This document shows, one piece after another, positions 3,945 to 52,430 of a DNA stretch of 64,000 bases. Numbering within the stretch: the stretch's first letter is position 1; every line of letters begins with the position of its first letter. Below the pieces are notes generated by a model. The model saw nothing but the letters and a program-made list of their open reading frames with translations. It searched no databases and was not told the DNA's origin. The stretch spans positions 26,470,736-26,534,735 of the forward strand of contig NC_056048.1 in NCBI RefSeq assembly GCF_004379255.2. The letters run 5' to 3'. The translations under genes were made by a program, and so were the position numbers. The stretch comes from Salvia splendens (Eukaryota > Streptophyta > Magnoliopsida > Lamiales > Lamiaceae).

Positions 3945-4121
3945 TGTTAGGATCGTCGACTGCAACATTAGTTTGATATTGTCCGCTTTGGGTCAAGCCC
4001 GCACGGATTTGTTTTTGGGTCACTCCCAAAAGGCCTCAAACTAATTGGGGTTGGACAGGAATTATATACACCTTCCAACTTCCCTCACTCATCCGATGTG
4101 GGACGGGTTTGTAACTTAACA
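3945..4121 (-). repeat. TRIM 3' LTR (left copy)
   Basis: This 177-bp LTR carries on its minus strand GTCCCACATCG (4094-4104), followed 25 bp downstream by TATATAA (4062-4068). That order and strand suit a promoter driving the element. The 11-mer equals the plant snRNA USE consensus RTCCCACATCG. Confidence 0.85.
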
Positions 4122-4296
4122 AACCTCCCCTCAAACCGAGACCACATCGGGAACGCAGTCGACACGAACATGGGTTGTTCCAGCCCTGGCCCCTGGGTCA
4201 TCCTGGGCCAGACTCTAACTTTGAGTCCTTCAGGGCCCGACCCTAACCGGGGCTCATCCAGGCACGACCCATAGCCACCTGGGCTCTGATACCACT

Positions 4297-4473
4297 TGTT
4301 AGGATCGTCGACTGCAACATTAGTTTGATATTGTCCGCTTTGGGTCAAGCCCGCACGGATTTGTTTTTGGGTCACTCCCAAAAGGCCTCAAACTAATTGG
4401 GGTTGGACAGGAATTATATACACCTTCCAACTTCCCTCACTCATCCGATGTGGGACGGGTTTGTAACTTAACA
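4297..4473 (-). repeat. TRIM 5' LTR (right copy)
   Basis: This copy is identical to the left LTR. Its USE-like 11-mer is at 4446-4456 on the minus strand. As the upstream LTR it would hold the functional promoter, and the Met-tRNA primer-binding site follows just inside it. Confidence 0.85.
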
Positions 4474-5785
4474 AATACATGACAAGTTGCGAGTATTTGG
4501 GCCGGATACTGTAGCTAGCAGAATGTCCGGTATCGGGTAAATATGAAATTGTTAATAAATTAATGGATTTTTATTAGAAATAACTCAAACAAACAAAAAT
4601 ATTACAAACAACTGATGCACTCCAAGCAATATTAAAGATTTTCTTTAATGTAAATTAAGTAATAGTTTGCTTTAAACGAGATAAAAATTTGAATGAATAG
4701 AGTACTAGTACTAATTAAAAGGCCATGAAGAAGGAACAAGTGAGATAAATTATGAATAAAAGTATTATAACAATAAAAATGTTCAATGTGGCTAATATAT
4801 AGCCCAAAAAGTCAACCTAACCCAATCGTGAGACTCGGGACTTGGAAATATAAATCTAATGTAAAAGAAATCAAATCGACTCTTAATTACCGAAATATAA
4901 TACTCCATGATAAAATGCAAACTTTAAATTCTAAGAATTTCATAGAATTATATAATATTGAGACACATCATAAAACATTATATAAAGATTTTTTTTTTCT
5001 TTCTCTTTTGAAGATAGAAAGATAAGTATTTGTTGACGTTTGAAAAGAGGGAAGGGGAGGAATACGCAGACACAATGACGGACCCAGAAAGTATACCTCG
5101 TGGGGTCGGACCAAATTTTTTTTACTAAGTATATAATACTACCATTTAAATAATAATTATATAATATATACTATTAAATAATTATTTTTATCATTTTTAT
5201 TATCATTATTATGTTTTTGTTACAATTGAATAACAAAATTAAAACTTGAATTAAATCAATTAACTATGCTAATTAACAATTTTTAATATTTAACATATTT
5301 ATAGGATCTACTAAAGCTATATGTTACATAAAATAAACAATCACATATTAAATATATTAATTACACTAGCTAAAACTAAAAAATATTGAAATAAAAATCA
5401 TAATAAAAATATATTCCTAGATTTACAAAATCGCCGCCCCTCTCTTGCACTGGATTATGCAACAGTTTTCTTCAAATTCAAAATTCACGCTTCCTTCTTC
5501 ACTAAATTTTTAAAGTATCTTTAAATTCATTCTTCTTCTCTAAATTCCCTTCCTACTTAATTTTTATAATCCACAACAATGTTTCTCTTACTCTCCTCGA
5601 TCTCATTTATTCTCTAGTTTGTAGAGGCGAAGTTGTCGTACATGGGGTCGAGTGGGTCGGCCGCCGTTTATGGAGCTTCCCGAACAGTACTCATGAACCA
5701 ACGGTGGGGTCGATGTCGTCGACCGGGTTAACAATTAATAGAATAAAAGCCCAAACAATATTACAAAGATTTATATTAATCTTTT
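4474..5785. other. Flank of a decayed F-box copy, interrupted by a TE fragment
   Basis: From about 4720 to 5000 the sequence resembles the upstream region of the other F-box copies (compare 7300-7460 and 9028-9300: shared GCCCAAAAAGTCAACC, GACTTGGAAATATAAAT, AAATCAAATCGACTCT and ATATTGAGACACA). From about 5073, a terminus CAATGACGGACCCAG begins an AT-rich segment resembling a non-autonomous hAT-type end; the same end occurs in reverse near 44859. No gene is supported between 5000 and 5780. Confidence 0.5.
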
Positions 5786-16522: not shown

Positions 16523-16877
16523 ATACAGATAGCGCGGCGAGGCCTTGCACGCCGTTGTGCTCTTGCCGACGACATGGCCTGCTCGATGCATCGAGCACCG
16601 TCGTGCCGATGAGCAGGGTGACGTGGCGGCTTCTGATTGGCCAATGACAATTCCGTTGGATATTTTCTTTTCTTTTTTAAAAAAATCAAAAAATAATACC
16701 AAAAATTAAGAAAAATACTTTCGGATTCTCAAAAATACAGTCGTTTTATTACTGTTATTTTTTTTAAATACACACATTCATCATCCATTTTTTACATCAA
16801 ATTATCTCTCACTCATATTTTTTCATACAACTCACCTACATTTTCATCTCTCACTCAAACACTCTCTAAATTCAAAA

Positions 16878-18165
16878 ATGGATACAAACGCTATCATTGT
16901 GGAAGCGGAGCGCGAAGAACATGAATACTATCAACAATATCGTGCCGCCTATGAAGCTTATGTCGCCGCCGCTGCCGCCGCCCCTCCTCCTCGACCAATG
17001 AGATCAAATCGCCACTACATCCCTCGTGACCGGGAGAGAATCCACGAAAGGCTCGTTTCCGACTATTTTTCCGACGAGTCACGGTTTTCGGCAGATTACT
17101 TACGGCGTCGTTTCCGCATGTCAAAACGGTTGTTTATGCGTATTGTCAATACATTGTCTGCCCGTGTTGAATACTTCCAATCACGTAGAGACGCATCCGG
17201 TTGGCAAAGTCTCTCGGCGTTGCAGAAGTGTACTTGTGCCCTCCGACAACTTGCTACCGGGCAAACGGCTGACCTCTTTGACGAGTATATGCATGTGGGT
17301 GACTCAACTGGAATCCAATGCCTCAAAATTTTTTGTGTCGGCGTACGTTCTGCTTTCCGTGAGGAATTCCTTCGGGCACCCACCACCGAAGATTGTCAAC
17401 GGTTGCTTCATCTTAACGAAACAGTCCACGGATTTCCCGGTATGCTTGGCAGCATTGACTGCATACAATGAAAGTGGAAGAATTGCCCGATTGCTTAGAG
17501 GGGGCAACACTTAGGCAGCCACAAAGGCGGCGGCCCAACGCTTATCCTTGAAGCGGTCGCCGACTACTGCCTATGGATTTGGCATGCATATTTCGGTGTT
17601 GCCGGATCCAACAACGACTTGAACGTGCTCTATTCTTCACCACTATTTAATGATGTTTTGAATGGTGTGGCACTGGTGATTGACTTCACCGTCAACGGAA
17701 ATCCATACCACATGGGGTACTATCTCGTCGATGGTATCTAACCAAGGTGGCCGACTTTCGTGAAGACGCTCAACAATCCGCAAGACCCAAAACGGGTTCT
17801 TTATGCGCAGCGTCAAGAGGCTGCTCTGAAAGACGTCAAAAGAGCTTTTGGGGTCCTTCAAGCCCGATTCAACATTGTGAAGACCCCGGGCTCGGCTGTG
17901 GTACACAAAGAATATTTCCGACATCATGTACAAGTGTATTATCTTGCACAACATGATTATAGCTGACGAAGGACCGAGGGCGGCTAACTTTTACGACGAG
18001 GATGAAGCCGGAAGCTCAACCGCAAGGTCTCCCCCACGCCGAGGTGTGCATACGACGGTGCGCGAGAATATCGAAACAAGACACACAATGCGCGATACCA
18101 AAACCCAAATTGAGCTACAAGAAGACCTAATCCAACACATTTGGGAGAAATTCGGCCACGAGTAG
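16878..18165 (+). pseudogene. Harbinger transposase pseudogene (DDE_Tnp_4 type)
   Basis: The frame starts with MDTNAIIVEAEREEHEYYQQ and continues through a helix-turn-helix-like region (RRRFRMSKRLFMRIV) to the first catalytic Asp in GSIDC, then hits TGA at 17469. The same frame continues with TAG at 17496 and TAA at 17739. The first two stops fall where the family has Trp, and the third where Tyr is expected. A one-base insertion near 17890 shifts frame, after which the conserved IILHNMI segment and C-terminus follow in another frame to the stop at 18163. The second catalytic Asp (SNNDLNV) remains, but the catalytic Glu before RAFGVLQARF is Lys. It is therefore inactive as protein. The usual second Myb-like ORF of Harbinger was not found. 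Confidence 0.92.
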
Positions 18166-18912: not shown

Positions 18913-19725
18913 TGATGGTTGGGCGAATTTTTGATGATAGTAAATGCAGGTAATGAATATAGATCACGACACAAGGAATTACGTGGTTCGATTTACTGAG
19001 GTAAATCTACGTCCACGGGAAGAAAGGAGGGCAAGATTGTATTGCTTGATCTGGTTTTCCAGCTTACAAATACAGACTTGCTAAATGATATTTGATCTCT
19101 AGAGAGCCCTTTCTCTATCTGATCTAAGTTCTATTTATACATTGAACTAAGATCGTGGCTTGCATCACCACTAACTAGGTCGTGGCTTACATCACCACTA
19201 ACTAGGTCGTGGCTTACATCACCACTAACTAGGTCGTGGCTTACATCACCACTAAGTAGGTCGTGGCTTACATCATCAGTAATTATGTCGTGGATGTCGT
19301 GGAGGTCATGAGATCCTGCATGGGTCCACTATCTCTTTGTTTGGTCCGCTATCCTGCATGAGATCCTGCATGAATTGACACCACTATCTCCCAGTTCGGT
19401 CGAATAATGAGACCGAACTGCTGAACTATTGCCGAGCAGCTTTTGCCAATCTGAGAGTAGAGCTTGATTGGTCGGCTTTTACCGAGCTGTAGGCTGGGGC
19501 CGAACTCTTTGGTAATGCCGAACTGATACTCTTCCTTGGGGACCGAACTGCTGAGCTATTGCCGAGCAGCTTTTGCCAATCTGAGAGTAGAGCTTGATTG
19601 GTCGGCTTTTACCGAGCTGTAGGCTGGGGCCGAACTCTTTGGTAATGCCGAACTGATACTCTTCCTTGGGCTTTGGGCTGATGGGCCGTCACTGCTATTG
19701 GGCTTGTTTAGTACGTACCCCATCA
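18913..19725 (-). repeat. 3' LTR of the Tat element
   Basis: An 813-bp LTR with TG...CA ends (read on either strand). It contains five copies of a 27-bp unit (TCGTGGCTTACATCACCACT core, about 19152-19285) and two 130-bp tandem copies (19411-19540, 19541-19670) rich in CCGAACT/AGTTCGG words. It has the same length as the 5' LTR. The differences noted are GAATTG here against GAGTTG (near 29687), and TGCCG against TGTCG (near 29833). Confidence 0.95.
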
Positions 19726-29227: not shown

Positions 29228-30040
29228 TGATGGTTGGGCGAATTTTTGATGATAGTAAATGCAGGTAATGAATATAGATCACGACACAAGGAATTACGTG
29301 GTTCGATTTACTGAGGTAAATCTACGTCCACGGGAAGAAAGGAGGGCAAGATTGTATTGCTTGATCTGGTTTTCCAGCTTACAAATACAGACTTGCTAAA
29401 TGATATTTGATCTCTAGAGAGCCCTTTCTCTATCTGATCTAAGTTCTATTTATACATTGAACTAAGATCGTGGCTTGCATCACCACTAACTAGGTCGTGG
29501 CTTACATCACCACTAACTAGGTCGTGGCTTACATCACCACTAACTAGGTCGTGGCTTACATCACCACTAAGTAGGTCGTGGCTTACATCATCAGTAATTA
29601 TGTCGTGGATGTCGTGGAGGTCATGAGATCCTGCATGGGTCCACTATCTCTTTGTTTGGTCCGCTATCCTGCATGAGATCCTGCATGAGTTGACACCACT
29701 ATCTCCCAGTTCGGTCGAATAATGAGACCGAACTGCTGAACTATTGCCGAGCAGCTTTTGCCAATCTGAGAGTAGAGCTTGATTGGTCGGCTTTTACCGA
29801 GCTGTAGGCTGGGGCCGAACTCTTTGGTAATGTCGAACTGATACTCTTCCTTGGGGACCGAACTGCTGAGCTATTGCCGAGCAGCTTTTGCCAATCTGAG
29901 AGTAGAGCTTGATTGGTCGGCTTTTACCGAGCTGTAGGCTGGGGCCGAACTCTTTGGTAATGCCGAACTGATACTCTTCCTTGGGCTTTGGGCTGATGGG
30001 CCGTCACTGCTATTGGGCTTGTTTAGTACGTACCCCATCA
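29228..30040 (-). repeat. 5' LTR of the Tat element (with TATA box)
   Basis: An 813-bp LTR, collinear with the 3' LTR at an offset of 10315. On the minus strand a good TATA box (GTATAAATAG, 29446-29455) would start transcription toward gag. The LTR also carries the 27-bp (five copies) and 130-bp (two copies) internal tandem repeats. Its outer edge is followed by the TSD CAAAC. Confidence 0.95.
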
Positions 30041-31620: not shown

Positions 31621-32166
31621 GGCCATCCACAATAGGAATAGCCCAGCAATAGCCCAGCTATAGCCCAGCCACTGTCACATCAGCAGCACTAAAAATCCTC
31701 CTGCCACATCATCAAAACAAGCAAATAGCCCAGCAATAGCTCATCCATAGCCTAGCCACTAATATCCACATCACTATTAACAAATATATACAAAATGAAA
31801 TAATTAACAATCACACAATATGCGAAATTTAATTTACGAGACATATACGGGAAAAGTTTAATAATACTATTAAAATTAAGATAGAGAGAATACTCGTTAA
31901 AACAAGTGGTGCGAATGAAAATGACGAACAAAGCGCGTATATATAGTGTTTCGAAAAAAAAAATTTATTTTTTCGCGCTAGGCGGTGCGCTGGGCGATCC
32001 GGGCGCTGCAATAGCGCCGAACGGACCGCCCAGCGCCACGCGACCGCCCAGCGCTGCGCGGTTTCTCTCTCCAATCGCCCGCTGGGCGGCTGCAATAGAT
32101 CGCCCAGCGAACCGCCCAGCGCCGGCGCTCGGCTGGGCGGTCGCTGGGCGCCTATTGTGGATGGCC
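31621..32166. mobile_element. Harbinger-type MITE (family H1)
   Basis: The termini GGCCATCCACAATAG and CTATTGTGGATGGCC are perfect 15-bp inverted repeats with TAA on both sides, the Harbinger 3-bp target. The left third has repeats of ATAGCCCAGC; the right third is GC-rich with repeats of CCGCCCAGCG. No transposase is present. It is 546 bp long, a short relative of the element at 49385-51129, with which it shares both ends over 150-250 bp. Confidence 0.92.
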
Positions 32167-46734: not shown

Positions 46735-47045
46735 TCATCTACCTGTGGAGTTAAAACCCGATGACAACGAACCACTCCTCCGACTAATCCTACGTGTAGA
46801 CGTGGAAAATCCACTTCTCCCAAAACATGAAGCCTGTTAACAACCTCCTCAATGCTCCCCTACTCGTTGAAACGCCTCATCTGCAGCTCTTGCTCGTCGT
46901 ATATGTGGAGAGCTAAAAACAGATGACAACGACCCACTCCACCGACTAATCCTAGGTGTAGAAGTGGAAGATCCACTTCTCCCAAAACAAGACATGAAGC
47001 CAGTTAACAGCCTCCTCAATCCTCCCCTGTTCCTCGAAACGCTAC
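46735..47045. repeat. Tandem duplication at the 3' end of the RING gene
   Basis: Two diverged copies of about 150-155 bp (about 46735-46878 and 46905-47045) share GATGACAACGA, CGACTAATCCTA, GTGTAGA.GTGGAA, ATCCACTTCTCCCAAAACA, GTTAACA.CCTCCTCAAT and CTCCCCT. The stop codon of the RING frame (46849) lies in the left copy, so the C-terminus of the protein is encoded by duplicated DNA. Confidence 0.85.
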
Positions 47046-47991
47046 CTCTAGAACTCCAAGAAACCCTCCTCGGCATCCCATTGTTATTGAACCCGCCATC
47101 CATCTCCGTGTAAACAACAGGAAGCTCGCCTCTCCCCCCTCCGGAAAACCGCCCCACTGCAAAACCACCCCCGGGCAATCTCCATATCGTCATCCCCACC
47201 GTCTCATCCTCACCTCCCACCTCGTTCCCTCCTCCTCTATTCGCGTCCGCACCACCATTCCCGTTCTCATTATCCTCAGCTGTCAGCTCGTGCCTACACA
47301 CGGGGCACGAATTCCTCAACGACAGCCACGGTAGAATGCAGTCCTGATGGTACAGATGACTGCAGGGCATCTCGCGGGCATTGCTCCCCAGCTCAAACGC
47401 CTCCTTGCAGACCGCGCAGTGCGATTCAATCGCAATGTGGCGATCGATTATAGACACGGTTGGCATAGACTCGATGGCGGCCTTCGATGCGGGAGGATTG
47501 CTGTCGATTCTCCCCGTCCCGTTCGCCTCAATTTGCGATAGCTGATCCAGGAGCCTGTCGAAACCCGAACCGAGCAAAAACTCCGACATAGTCGCCGGTA
47601 GCGGCCGCAACCCCGACCCCGCTCTGTCGTCGTAATACAGCTCAAACCCTCCCCCACCGCCTCCAGCTCCAGCTCCGCCATCGCTGGCGCCACCACGGAG
47701 AAGGATGACAGGATTAAACGGCGATCGATCGCCTCCATTTCTGCGGCTCCTTCGCAGCCTAGGGCTCGATACGGACGCCGGCCCTGGAATAGGGCATGGC
47801 TCAGGCGCCTGCATCATGTACATAGCCGCGGCGGGGAAGCGGCGTTGCCTGGAGTCGGAAATTGAAGACGGCGGGGGCGGAGCTTCGACCTCTTCGACGA
47901 ATCCGGAGCTGCAATCGGGGCAATCGATGGATTCCGGATTCCAAGCCCTAAGGAAGCGGTTGCATCTGTGACACCAGTATGTGGAAGACAT
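46849..47991 (-). CDS. RING-H2 E3 ubiquitin ligase with DUF1117 (RDUF-like)
   Basis: An intronless frame of 380 codons. Residues 5-30 form an N-terminal zinc ribbon (WCHRCNRFLRAW, then CPDC; Cys 7, 10, 24, 27). A Gly/Ser-rich low-complexity stretch follows. The RING-H2 finger spans 191-231 (C-X2-C-X14-C-X-H-X2-H-X2-C-X10-C-X2-C), with all eight ligands and the conserved Trp for E2 binding. Residues about 258-345 match DUF1117 (MTIWRLPGGGFAVGRF, LPVVYTEMDGGFN). This architecture is that of Arabidopsis RDUF1/RDUF2, cytosolic and nuclear ligases in abscisic-acid and drought responses. The start Met fits the family N-terminus. Because the 3' end is duplicated, the last 40 or so residues may differ from orthologues. 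Its target is unknown. Confidence 0.93.
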   Translation of the reverse strand: MSSTYWCHRCNRFLRAWNPESIDCPDCSSGFVEEVEAPPPPSSISDSRQRRFPAAAMYMMQAPEPCPIPGPASVSSPRLRRSRRNGGDRSPFNPVILLRGGASDGGAGAGGGGGGFELYYDDRAGSGLRPLPATMSEFLLGSGFDRLLDQLSQIEANGTGRIDSNPPASKAAIESMPTVSIIDRHIAIESHCAVCKEAFELGSNAREMPCSHLYHQDCILPWLSLRNSCPVCRHELTAEDNENGNGGADANRGGGNEVGGEDETVGMTIWRLPGGGFAVGRFSGGGRGELPVVYTEMDGGFNNNGMPRRVSWSSRGSVSRNRGGLRRLLTGFMSCFGRSGSSTSTPRISRWSGSLSSVFSSPHIRRARAADEAFQRVGEH

Positions 47992-49384
47992 GGAAATTAA
48001 TTCGATCTTCTTCTTGAATTACAGAGAAAACAAGAAATGTATGAATCCGATTTTGGATCAGAGCAGATTTTGAATAATTGGGGAAAATCGATGAGTGCGT
48101 GTGTGTGTGAATTGGGGATCAAGAAAATTAGGCATTATATTGGTGAGGGTTATGAGTGGGAATAACTCCGAGGGCGAAGGGTAAAATTGGAAAAGCGTGT
48201 GGAGTTGATTGAGATGCAGCGTGAATTCAACGCTGGGAATTAAACTGTTGACCTGACGGCGTTGAATGAGACGTTAGTGGGAATTAACTGTGCCATTTAA
48301 ACTAGGGTAAATTGCGGAAAAATCAAATTTTGATTTGCAGCTTTAAAATTAATTGAAAACTACTATAAATTTGGATTTATGTACAATCATCTAATGTAAA
48401 TGGTTTTAATTAAATTGTACCGATATGACAACCGCCAAAATAAAGTTGATGTGTTGAATGATAGTAGTAGTATTTTATTCATAGAAACAATAGTATTTCA
48501 TCGGTCCAATGTTACTTTTTTTTTTTAAATTGCAATTCATTACTAATACTCCATTATAATGTAATTAAATTAATATTTAAATGTAATAAAAGATCACTTA
48601 AAAATCTATATAATTTAACTCTAGTATATTAATTAAATATTAAAATTCTTACTTAAAATATAACTAGTGTGAATAATATGAGATCGATGTTTTTTTTAAA
48701 ACAGTATTTCAAACATTATACTAAGATAAACTAAAATTTGATCACATTTAACGGGCTTTTGATAATTTGTTCTTAAATTAGTACTTTGAGTTTTCCTTTT
48801 CATTTAAATTCAATTTAGCTACATTTATATATTGAAATTACATAATTTAATTTTGATGGTTCATACTTCATTGTCGGCACGGTTGCAATTATACAAATTT
48901 AAGTTTATATCTAGTGTTATTGTTCTAGAAGTAGAGTTGATACTACGTTCTTTAACATGAACGGATTAGGAAAACCGAAAATTTTCCGATTATATTTAAG
49001 TTCTTAAGCATTTTTATAATTTCTAGTCAGTTTTAAAATTTATAATTGTAAGTCACACATAGAGGTGTCAATTCAATACGAACCTCATGGAAGACCCGAT
49101 TAACCTGCTAAAATTGGAGGATTAGGCCTGAAAAATTGCAACCCAATTAGAAATCAGGCTAATCGGGCCTACTTATTTTTCATAAAAAAATTTAAAACAA
49201 TGGTTTGGTGTTTATTTAAAATAAAATTAACAAAATTATATACCCTTAATACCGTACAATATCTTTTTCATGAATATATATCAGATTTTCTATAAAAACA
49301 TTCTCTGTGCCTCAGAAAATACAGGTTAGGTAATTATTTTTCAGAAACTCAAACTTTTTTAATTACGAAAACTTGAAATTATTA
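47992..49384. other. RING gene 5' flank and AT-rich intergenic DNA
   Basis: The first roughly 200 bp upstream of the RING start hold the 5' UTR and promoter; GGCATTATATTGG at 48131 is AT-rich but not a clear TATA box. From 48300 to 49380 there is only AT-rich spacer with no recognised gene. Confidence 0.45.
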
Positions 49385-51129
49385 GGCCATCCACAATAGA
49401 AATAGCCCAGCCATAGCCTAGCCACTGCCACATCATCTGCACTAAAAATCCTTCTGCCACATCATCAAAACAAGCAAATAGCCCAGCAATAGCCCAGCCA
49501 TAGCCTAGCCACATACTATCCACATCACTATTAACAAATATATACAAAATGCAATAATTAACAATAACGCAATATACGAAATTTAATTTACGAGACATAT
49601 ACGGGAAAATTCACTAATATTAATAAAATTTAAAAAGTACATAATTAAAAAAAATTACATTAATTAAATTTACAAATGAAAATTTAAAATAACATTACAA
49701 CTTAAAGTTAAAAAATAAAAAAAAGACATAATTAAAATCTTAAAAAAATAAAAATGACATAATTTAAAATACAATTTTATAGAAAATCCTTGAATGAGTT
49801 TGTCCCACATCGAAAGTGGAACATAAAACATTCAAGGATATCTCTCTATAAAAGAGAAACATCCTTGAATGAGATTGTCCCACATCGAAAGTTGAACATA
49901 AAACATTCAAGGATTTCTCTCTATAAAAGAGAAACATCCTTGAATGAGTTTGTCCCACATCGAAAGTGGAACATAAAACATTCAAGGATATCTCTCTATA
50001 AAAGAGAAACATCCTTGAATGAGATTGTCCCACATCGAAAGTGGAACATAAAACATTCAAGGATTTCTCTCTATAAAAGAGAAACATCCTTGAATGAGAT
50101 TGTCCCACATCGAAAGTGGAACATAAAACATTTAAGGATATCTCTCTATAAAATAGAGGCAACTAAGAATGAGTTTGTCCCACATCGAAAGTGGAACATA
50201 AAACATTCAAGGATATCTCTCTATAAAAGAGAAACATCCTTGAATGAGATTGTCCCACATTGAAAGTGGAACATAAAACATTCAAGGATATCTCTCTATA
50301 AAAGAGAAACATCCTTGAATGAGATTGTCCCACATCGAAAGTGGAACATAAAACATTCAAGGATTTCTCTCTATAAAAGAGAAACATCCTTGAATGAGAT
50401 TGTCCCACATCGAAAGTGGAACATGAAACATTCAAGGATATCTCTCTATAAAAGAGAAACATCCTTGAATGAGATTGTCCCACATCGAAAGTGGAACATA
50501 AAACATTCAAGGATATCTCTCTATAAAAGAGAAACATCCTTGAATGAGTTTGTCCCACATCGAAAGTGGAACATAAAACATTCATGGATATCTCTCTATA
50601 AAAGAGAAACATCCTTGAATGAGTTTGTCCCACATTGAAAGTGGAACATAAAACATTCAAGGATGTCTCTATAAAATAGAGGCAACCAAGAATGAGTTTG
50701 TCCCACATCGAAAGTGGAACATAAAACATTCAAGGATGTCTCTATAAAAGAGAGACAACCAAGAATGAGTTTCATAAATTCGCAAGCCCATTAAATATAT
50801 ATGGGCTATTACGAATTTCTAGTATAAATTTATTTATAAAAATTGATTTTTATATATAGAAAACAATTTTTATAAATAAATAATATTTTTTTATATTTGA
50901 TTTTTTTTTAAAAAATTCGAATTTCAAAAATTCGAATTAAAAAAAAAATCGCGCTGGGCGATCCGGGCGCTGCAATAGCGCTGAGCGGATCGCCCAGCGC
51001 ACCGCCCAGCGCCACGAAACCGCCCAGCGCTGCGCGGTTTCTCTCTCCAATCGTCCGCTGGGCGGCTGCAATAGACCGCCCAGCGCCGGCGGTCGCTGGG
51101 CGGTCGCTGGGCGCCTATTGTGGATGGTC
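49385..51129. mobile_element. Harbinger-type element (family H1) with internal tandem array
   Basis: The left end GGCCATCCACAATAG and right end CTATTGTGGATGGTC are inverted repeats with one mismatch; TTA lies on both sides. The left 235 bp (ATAGCCCAGC repeats) and the right 190 bp (CCGCCCAGCG-rich) match the MITE at 31621-32166. Between 49620 and 49780 there is AT-rich sequence with ACATAATTAAAATC words like the 3' UTR of the Harbinger transposases at 18180 and 38755. Instead of a transposase, the middle holds a 986-bp tandem array. The total of 1745 bp is three times the length of the MITE. Confidence 0.9.
49785..50770 (+). repeat. 13-unit tandem array with snRNA-type USE and TATA motifs
   Basis: The USE 11-mer GTCCCACATCG (twice GTCCCACATTG) starts at 49802, 49877, 49952, 50027, 50102, 50177, 50252, 50327, 50402, 50477, 50552, 50627 and 50700. 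Eleven successive spacings are exactly 75 bp and the last is 73. In unit 1, TATAAAAG begins at 49847, 34 bp after the USE; this spacing recurs in the 75-bp units. The plant snRNA USE consensus is RTCCCACATCG, and about 33-34 bp to the TATA box is the spacing of RNA polymerase II snRNA promoters. Each unit also has ATCCTTGAATG before and CATTCAAGGAT after the USE. Units differ by few bases. No snRNA sequence follows any unit. The open frames seen on both strands reflect the period of 75 (25 codons) and are not genes. Confidence 0.9.
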
Positions 51130-52430
51130 TTAGTTAATAGCATTTCAACCACAAAAAAATAATGTTGAAAACTCAAAAAATAGTTTCAATACACTGTCTT
51201 TCTTCCTAGGAATATAGAGTCAAATGGACGCGCTGATTAAAATCTAATCATCAGTCTTTCCTTTTTATTGGTATGGCATGTACATTAATTTTTCATCAAT
51301 ATAGAAAATTATCGATTTATTTTCATCATTTTGAAAATGAAAGGTTTTGGAGATGACCCTAATTCTCTTCTTTACTGTAAATATATATTCATTATTCTTC
51401 AATGAATTTTCTGTTACTCTATCTCGATGTTAGGTCTTCTAAAGTCACTTTTTGAATGATATATATATATTTTTTTCATTTTTGTCTATTAATAACGTTA
51501 GTTTTGCGCTATTCAACTGTTTAAGAATATAATAATACAACACCAATATTAAGAAACGTTTAATTTTACCATAAGACGGGTGGTAATTAGAAAATTCGTG
51601 AATCAGTTTTAACTTTAACTAATTTTGATTAAATTTTTTTTTTGGTGAATATAAAATTGATATTATACCAAATTTAAAAGTTGATATTGGAAATGGAAAC
51701 AAAAAATTGAAAGTGAGCAAGCACACACAAACCCACGTTAATTATTGTATTTCCATCGCATTTCATTCTTATTGTCCGGAAAGGATCTCCTACTCCAACA
51801 CTCCTACTCCATTCCTAATCCAACACTTACAACATAATAAAATAATATTATAAATGTATAACATTATTTTATTGTTTTGTAGTAGGAATGAAGTAGGAGT
51901 ATTGGAGTATGAAATCCGCTTCATTGTCAGTTTTCTTAAATTTTTAAGGATTTATACTATACTAAGTATATTTTAAAGTTATTTTAATTAAATAGTTTCA
52001 GCCACAGTAAGTTTATCAAAAAAATTCTCATGGTTTATATTACAACTATAATGAATATTCTTACCCAATCAAATTTTGATGATTGTTTTTTTTTTCAATT
52101 TTATGTTTTTATTGAATAATAATTTGATACTAGTAATATTTTTCAGTGAAATATCGTGCATGGCTACTAGTAGCTGATATAATATTTAAGTTTGTTAATA
52201 ATGCTTAATTTATCAATTAAGTCAGCTTTGATTTTAAAATAGAACTATTTTATTCCTATTTATAATATTTAAAAGTAAAAAATTACTAAAACCAAACGAA
52301 TTTACTCTCTACTAAAATTCAAGGAAGAAATTTATCTCGACAAATGTATTTAATCTAAAAATTATTAAAACAAAAAAAAAGCAGCTTACAAAATCTGCAG
52401 GCTTTCATCTCAGTTGAGGGGAAGCTGAAA
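51130..52430. other. Upstream region of the valyl-tRNA synthetase gene
   Basis: AT-rich, with no other gene. It contains one foldback element (51783-51917). The promoter and 5' UTR of the synthetase gene should lie in the last few hundred bases. No unambiguous TATA box was identified. Confidence 0.45.
51783..51917. mobile_element. Small foldback element
   Basis: Arms of about 39 bp (starting GGATCTCCTACTCCAACACT and ending AGTATTGGAGTATGAAATCC) are inverted repeats with a few mismatches around an AT-rich core of about 55 bp. Probably a very small MITE. Its class is not clear and no certain TSD was seen. Confidence 0.6.

Follow-up and report, generated by a model that had tools for sequence, protein, structure and literature searches.

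Plant snRNA genes transcribed by Pol II carry a USE and a TATA box four helical turns apart, and in the Pol III genes the two motifs lie one turn closer (PMC9845283). The plant 3' box is given as CA(N)3-10AGTNNAA in PMC5079582. Promoters of small-RNA genes have also been described in mobile elements. The non-autonomous TRIMp3 elements Cassandra, Helenus and Ajax bear such promoters in their LTRs (PMC10886601), and the Pr77 promoter of trypanosomatid non-LTR retrotransposons is bound by TBP and, weakly, by SNAP50 (PMC8190864). Among the best-matching titles and abstract beginnings listed from the open-licence PMC literature, we found no report of snRNA-type promoters in plant DNA transposons. 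Here we analyzed a window of 64,000 nucleotides from Salvia splendens, in which an array of USE-TATA modules lies inside a transposon of the PIF/Harbinger type and ends directly at a predicted start site and a hairpin. The window belongs to contig C17 of the 806-Mb assembly that was searched.

Results

The array repeats a USE-TATA module on one strand. TRF placed a tandem array at 49781-50769, with 13.3 copies of a 75-bp unit, 94% matches and a score of 1705, and together with the motif listing this confirmed the 13 units on one strand described by the first-pass annotation. The finer regularities claimed there held for most of the array. The 75-bp period applied to 11 of 12 unit-to-unit steps, the last step being 73 bp; the USE, starting at 49802 in the first unit, was exact in 11 of the 13 units and deviated at 50252 and 50627, where it reads GTCCCACATTG; and the 34-bp gap between the end of the USE and the TATA box was found in 11 units, the last two having 32 bp. 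TATAAAA was present in all 13 units, 11 of which had TATAAAAG. With up to two mismatches allowed, the USE 11-mer matched the window 24 times, and 100 dinucleotide shuffles gave a mean of 7.77 and a maximum of 14 matches. Since 75 nucleotides equal 25 codons, both strands of the array are open. A coding repeat was considered and dropped, as the Pfam matches of both array frames (the best being Snurportin1 and DUF285) contained no stretch that passed alone. A RING-type ORF with DUF1117 is located on the minus strand at 46849-48018, with the array element about 1.4 kb upstream of it. The features of the array and its carrier are listed in Table 1.

Table 1 Positions of the array, its carrier element and neighbouring features in the window
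Feature	Position	Strand	Basis or remark
Non-autonomous PIF/Harbinger-type TIR element carrying the array, 1,745 bp	49385..51129	+	TIRs GGCCATCCACAATAG / CTATTGTGGATGGTC, TTA on both sides
Left target-site duplication (TSD), TTA	49382..49384	.	Flank of the array element
Right TSD, TTA	51130..51132	.	Flank of the array element
Relative without array, 546 bp	31621..32166	+	TIRs shared with the array element; TSD TAA
USE-TATA array, 13 units	49802..50772	+	Each unit starts with the first base of its USE
Last (13th) unit: USE 50700-50710, TATAAAA 50743-50749, gap 32 bp	50700..50772	+	Motif spacing compared with host U1/U2
Predicted transcription start, C/ATA at TATA+31	50774..50774	+	Position inferred from U1/U2
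Hairpin behind the array, 14 pairs	50776..50818	+	Folding energy -14.5 kcal/mol (z -3.28), reached by 1 of 200 shuffles
AGTATAA, half of a plant 3' box, weak	50821..50827	+	CA missing at the required spacing; not conserved at L033 or L074
AT-rich inverted repeat behind the hairpin	50828..50881	.	Self-match of query 64-117, other strand

The spacing of the motifs was compared with that of the host U1 and U2 genes, for which 42 and 46 matches, respectively, were scored in the genome and 12 each were fetched. A USE-like motif (at most two mismatches) was found in 10 of the 12 U1 genes. A TATA box was recognized in six of these 10, with a USE-TATA gap of 32-35 bp and a distance from TATA to start of 31 (29 in one gene), and the other four had no TATA box under the pattern used. 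Of the U2 genes, 11 of 12 had a USE-like motif and a TATA box, with gaps of 32-36 bp and TATA-to-start distances of 32-34. Among 410 units from 41 array elements (see below), the gap was 34 bp in 316, 32 bp in 76 and of another length in 6, TATAAAA was absent in 12, and the USE was exact in 361. The prevailing gaps of 34 or 32 bp lie within the 32-36 bp of the host genes and correspond to Pol II spacing. Motif order and spacing agree with the host U1 and U2 genes, and the snRNA-promoter architecture that had been proposed for the units is upheld.

Beyond the motifs, the similarity of array units to U1 and U2 promoters was weak. A U1 donor was rejected, since 48 comparisons (eight promoters with three unit types) yielded a lowest shuffle fraction of 0.013, which was not convincing. 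Comparison with U2 promoters showed a weak likeness to those at L071 and L073; the four unit types compared had best-of-24 shuffle fractions of 0.31, 0.02, 0.13 and 0.05. The genome also has 48 matches to U6. Same-strand clusters of U1 and U2 genes are located at C21:22302173-22314749 and C11:11472037-11500079, with U1 copies about 1.24 kb apart. One U2 copy, L064 (C7:544610-544985), has no USE, a short A-run behind it and ACGCCAACTTGAAGTCA on both sides, and looks like a retroposed U2 pseudogene, judging from these marks.

Genome-wide, the G-type USE GTCCCACATCG was followed by TATAAAA 30-36 bp behind at 5,613 places, compared with 13 at 45-51 bp. The corresponding numbers for the A-type USE ATCCCACATCG were 564 and 3, and the reversed-pattern controls of both types gave 0 places. 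Many of the first 100 USE-TATA places were 73-75 bp from a neighbour, so much of this abundance probably reflects the descendants of one cassette and not independent origins. So many exact USE-TATA places against 42 U1 and 46 U2 matches would fit a decoy or enhancer function, in which thousands of USE sites sequester factors of the SNAPc type or influence genes nearby and need no RNA of their own; the position of the window copy upstream of the RING-type ORF points the same way. We consider this improbable, given that transposon copies may be in closed chromatin and that a single upstream insertion is ordinary for MITEs. As for the arrangement of these places, opposite-strand neighbours less than 3 kb apart among the first 100 were divergent and outward-pointing in 8 of 8 cases (e.g., the array or unit pairs at C1:4904777-4906738 and C1:5145372-5147134).

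The array is carried by a family of TIR elements. The statement of the first-pass annotation that the array lies inside a transposon proved correct, the transposon being the 1,745-bp TIR element of Table 1. A genome search using a single unit as query yielded 406 first-look candidates, of which 40 were scored, and at least 396 matches; 40 array loci were taken from the matches listed and, together with the window copy, form a set of 41 elements with 410 units. The number of units per element ranged from 5 to 23 (median 9). Both TIRs were found at three or fewer substitutions in 38 of the 41 elements, and all 38 had identical 3-bp TSDs (18 TTA, 16 TAA, 2 TCA and 2 TGA). In the three exceptions, the TIR match was at an odd distance (L021 and L044) or there was no right TIR match (L024). 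Mean pairwise differences were 1.4% in the left flanks and 2.3% in the right flanks (40 sequences each), and the 40 fetched elements lean to young copies because they were chosen as best matches.

An element adjoining the L021 copy has a TAA TSD and a left end 78-92% identical to that of the array element, and the right ends of the two match only in short stretches. It contains two ORF pieces with a stop codon between them, both of which match Plant_tran and the second of which also matches DDE_Tnp_4. At the level of sequence, this transposase-bearing relative supports the assignment of the array carrier to the PIF/Harbinger type. The units of the array face the right TIR, whereas the transposase of the relative runs in the other direction, so the array is apparently in no position to drive a gene of this sort. 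Elsewhere in the window, a remnant of a Plant_tran transposase gene is present at 16875-17471 (E 8.7e-06), and the sequence following this remnant is similar, in opposite orientation, to the AT-rich left flank of the array element. Tandem repeats of 27 bp and 130 bp are found at 19145-19670 and again at 29460-29985, and the long minus-strand ORFs between the two places look like a gag-pol retroelement.

The first-pass annotation had allowed that the unit might prove to be the LTR core of a known retroelement. We found no LTR ends around the array; in 38 of the 41 copies the carrier has TIRs and 3-bp TSDs in place of the LTR ends, primer-binding site and longer TSDs of an LTR retroelement. A captured LTR promoter would find a parallel in a TRIM-like element of the window (about 3945-4473, minus strand), which has two direct repeats with an exact USE (4094-4104 and 4446-4456, starts 352 bp apart) and a TATA-like box, TATATAA, 25 bp behind in each, near the Pol III snRNA spacing. 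The sequence TGGTATCAGAGC after its first repeat is presumably a Met-tRNA-like primer site. Several A-type USE-TATA matches also lie in same-strand pairs about 4.7 kb apart (C1:8219558/8224284, C1:17307399/17312102 and C1:31318107/31322811), an arrangement that LTRs would show if a retrotransposon family carried USE and TATA at snRNA spacing. No hairpin-bearing LTR was seen in this genome, however, and with TIRs in place of LTR ends we regard the origin of the unit from a retroelement promoter as very improbable. A 36-base piece of the unit was absent from viral contigs.

The unit looks derived and the arrays seem to change in length. Unit variants followed a partly shared order across elements, and the ends of the arrays were fixed, the first unit often being GTCTCACATCG and the last usually the variant with the 32-bp gap. 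A second element in the L018 locus had three units, all of the 73-bp kind. The order of the variants and this 73-bp-only element suggest that the palindromic 75-bp unit is a derived form and that unequal exchange alters the length of the arrays. Among 281 interior units, the USE and TATA motifs were not visibly better kept than neighbouring positions. The main rival to a promoter with a hairpin is passive hitchhiking: a minisatellite in a MITE, with motifs inherited from the founder, growth by slippage or unequal exchange, and silent copies. The absence of visible extra constraint on USE and TATA, the shared order of unit variants and the spread from 5 to 23 units between young copies are all consistent with it, and MITEs with tandem repeats are known elsewhere. 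It is a quite plausible account, one to which we assign well under half of the probability; what speaks against it is the right end of the array, described next.

The last unit abuts a predicted start site and a hairpin. The sequence C/ATA (the slash marks the start) was found at the start of 12 of 12 U1 and 11 of 12 U2 genes fetched. In all 41 array elements the last unit has it at TATA+31, which shows fixation in the family and not independent hits, as these elements share descent. Between TATA+29 and +34 of the internal units with TATAAAA it was found in 0 of 357. A50774 is the point where repeat homology stops, and the hairpin begins two bases on. The fixed right end sets C/ATA exactly at the snRNA start distance, which argues against a merely passive array. 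The first-pass annotation had seen no snRNA gene at this array; this holds in so far as no Rfam family reached its gathering score in the window, and it needs amending for the last unit, which abuts the predicted start and the hairpin. By eye, there was no Sm-site-like AU4-6G in 50774-50870.

In the six U1 genes for which USE and TATA were both recognized, the distance from USE to start was 74-76, nearly equal to the array period of 75 bp, and the predicted start of an internal unit therefore falls on the USE of the next unit, so that array units could hinder each other. Within the units, 374 of 410 fit the 3' box consensus; because such a box would share bases with the USE and the resulting RNA would be only about 15 nt long, we took the fit as coincidence.

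Palindromic units or the hairpin might also be transcribed from outside and diced into small RNAs. With DNA parameters, the unit folded better than 200 of 200 shuffles (z -4.39), adjacent units make up inverted repeats of 43 nt with 84% complementarity, and low-scoring miRNA models fit by stem shape, the best being MIR4378 with 42 bits against a cut-off of 90. With no Rfam match at gathering score and no evident compensating changes in the unit arms, a role as such a small-RNA source has, in our estimate, a small chance of being correct. Two related candidates were rejected: structural constraint on the unit arms, where 94.4% of pair cells were paired and compensation was not evident, and an identity as a miRNA, the model fits being stem-driven and below the cut-off.

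The last unit and the hairpin recur in other contexts. The last unit together with the start of the hairpin was found at 493 exact places genome-wide, and the reversed control gave 0. Two further contexts, at L033 and L074, contain it between flanks unrelated to those of the array element, and the keeping of last unit and hairpin together there speaks against a passive array. The second element at L033 has the left end GAGCATCCACTGCGC and GGGACGG-type repeats, and no right TIR matching this left end was found by the pattern used. It contains four direct units 73 bp apart and one inverted partial unit at the left, with the same hairpin and AT-rich left flank as the array element. L074 provides a third context, in which GAACCGGCGGTT-type repeats come after the last unit and hairpin. 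Over the three contexts, 97.6% of the pair cells of the hairpin were kept; there were two G-U changes and one broken pair, and two-sided (compensating) changes were absent. Judged by its sequence, the cassette looks like a promoter with a hairpin.

Discussion

The explanation we favour, tentatively and at a little less than an even chance, is that a USE-TATA module has been repeated in a PIF/Harbinger-type element and that its last unit is an snRNA-type Pol II promoter that starts a hairpin RNA. A SNAPc-like complex and TBP would bind the USE and TATA box, Pol II would start at A50774, and the last unit would drive the short hairpin RNA encoded right behind it. The upstream units may add binding sites, their number would shift by unequal exchange, and a related transposase may move the array element in trans.

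A broader proposal is that the cassette constitutes a mobile snRNA-type gene, in which promoter and hairpin, present in at least three transposon contexts, in arrays and in thousands of promoter copies, some of them in divergent outward pairs, would give rise to small nuclear hairpin RNAs of a new, transposon-borne class and drain or retarget the host snRNA machinery. This we hold to be rather unlikely.

Should the arrays prove active, the snRNA transcription route would have been captured by plant DNA transposons and thousands of promoters would compete for host SNAPc, which would make the limits and the silencing of this machinery testable. If they are silent, the genome is a natural library of near-identical snRNA-type promoters with graded copy number, useful for asking what the start of plant snRNA transcription needs beyond USE and TATA.

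Among known systems, the plant U1 and U2 genes share with the array the USE, the TATA box, their spacing and the C/ATA start context; unlike them, the array has no snRNA body, complete 3' box or Sm site, and its promoter is tandem and transposon-borne. The carrier resembles PIF/Harbinger MITEs in its TIRs, its 3-bp TSDs, mostly TTA or TAA, and the sequence it has in common with a transposase-bearing relative, and differs from them in holding a long promoter-like array and a hairpin. MITEs with internal tandem repeats, such as those reported in the clam Donax trunculus, likewise contain a variable tandem array, whereas the unit described here has snRNA promoter architecture. TRIMp3 elements are also non-autonomous and also carry the promoter of a small-RNA gene, but these are Pol III tRNA or 5S promoters in LTRs (PMC10886601), and here a Pol II-type USE and TATA lie in a DNA transposon. 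Pr77 is likewise a mobile-element promoter tied to snRNA factors (PMC8190864); it is present as one copy at the 5' end of retrotransposons and characterized by binding assays, whereas the promoter-like units of Salvia splendens form arrays.
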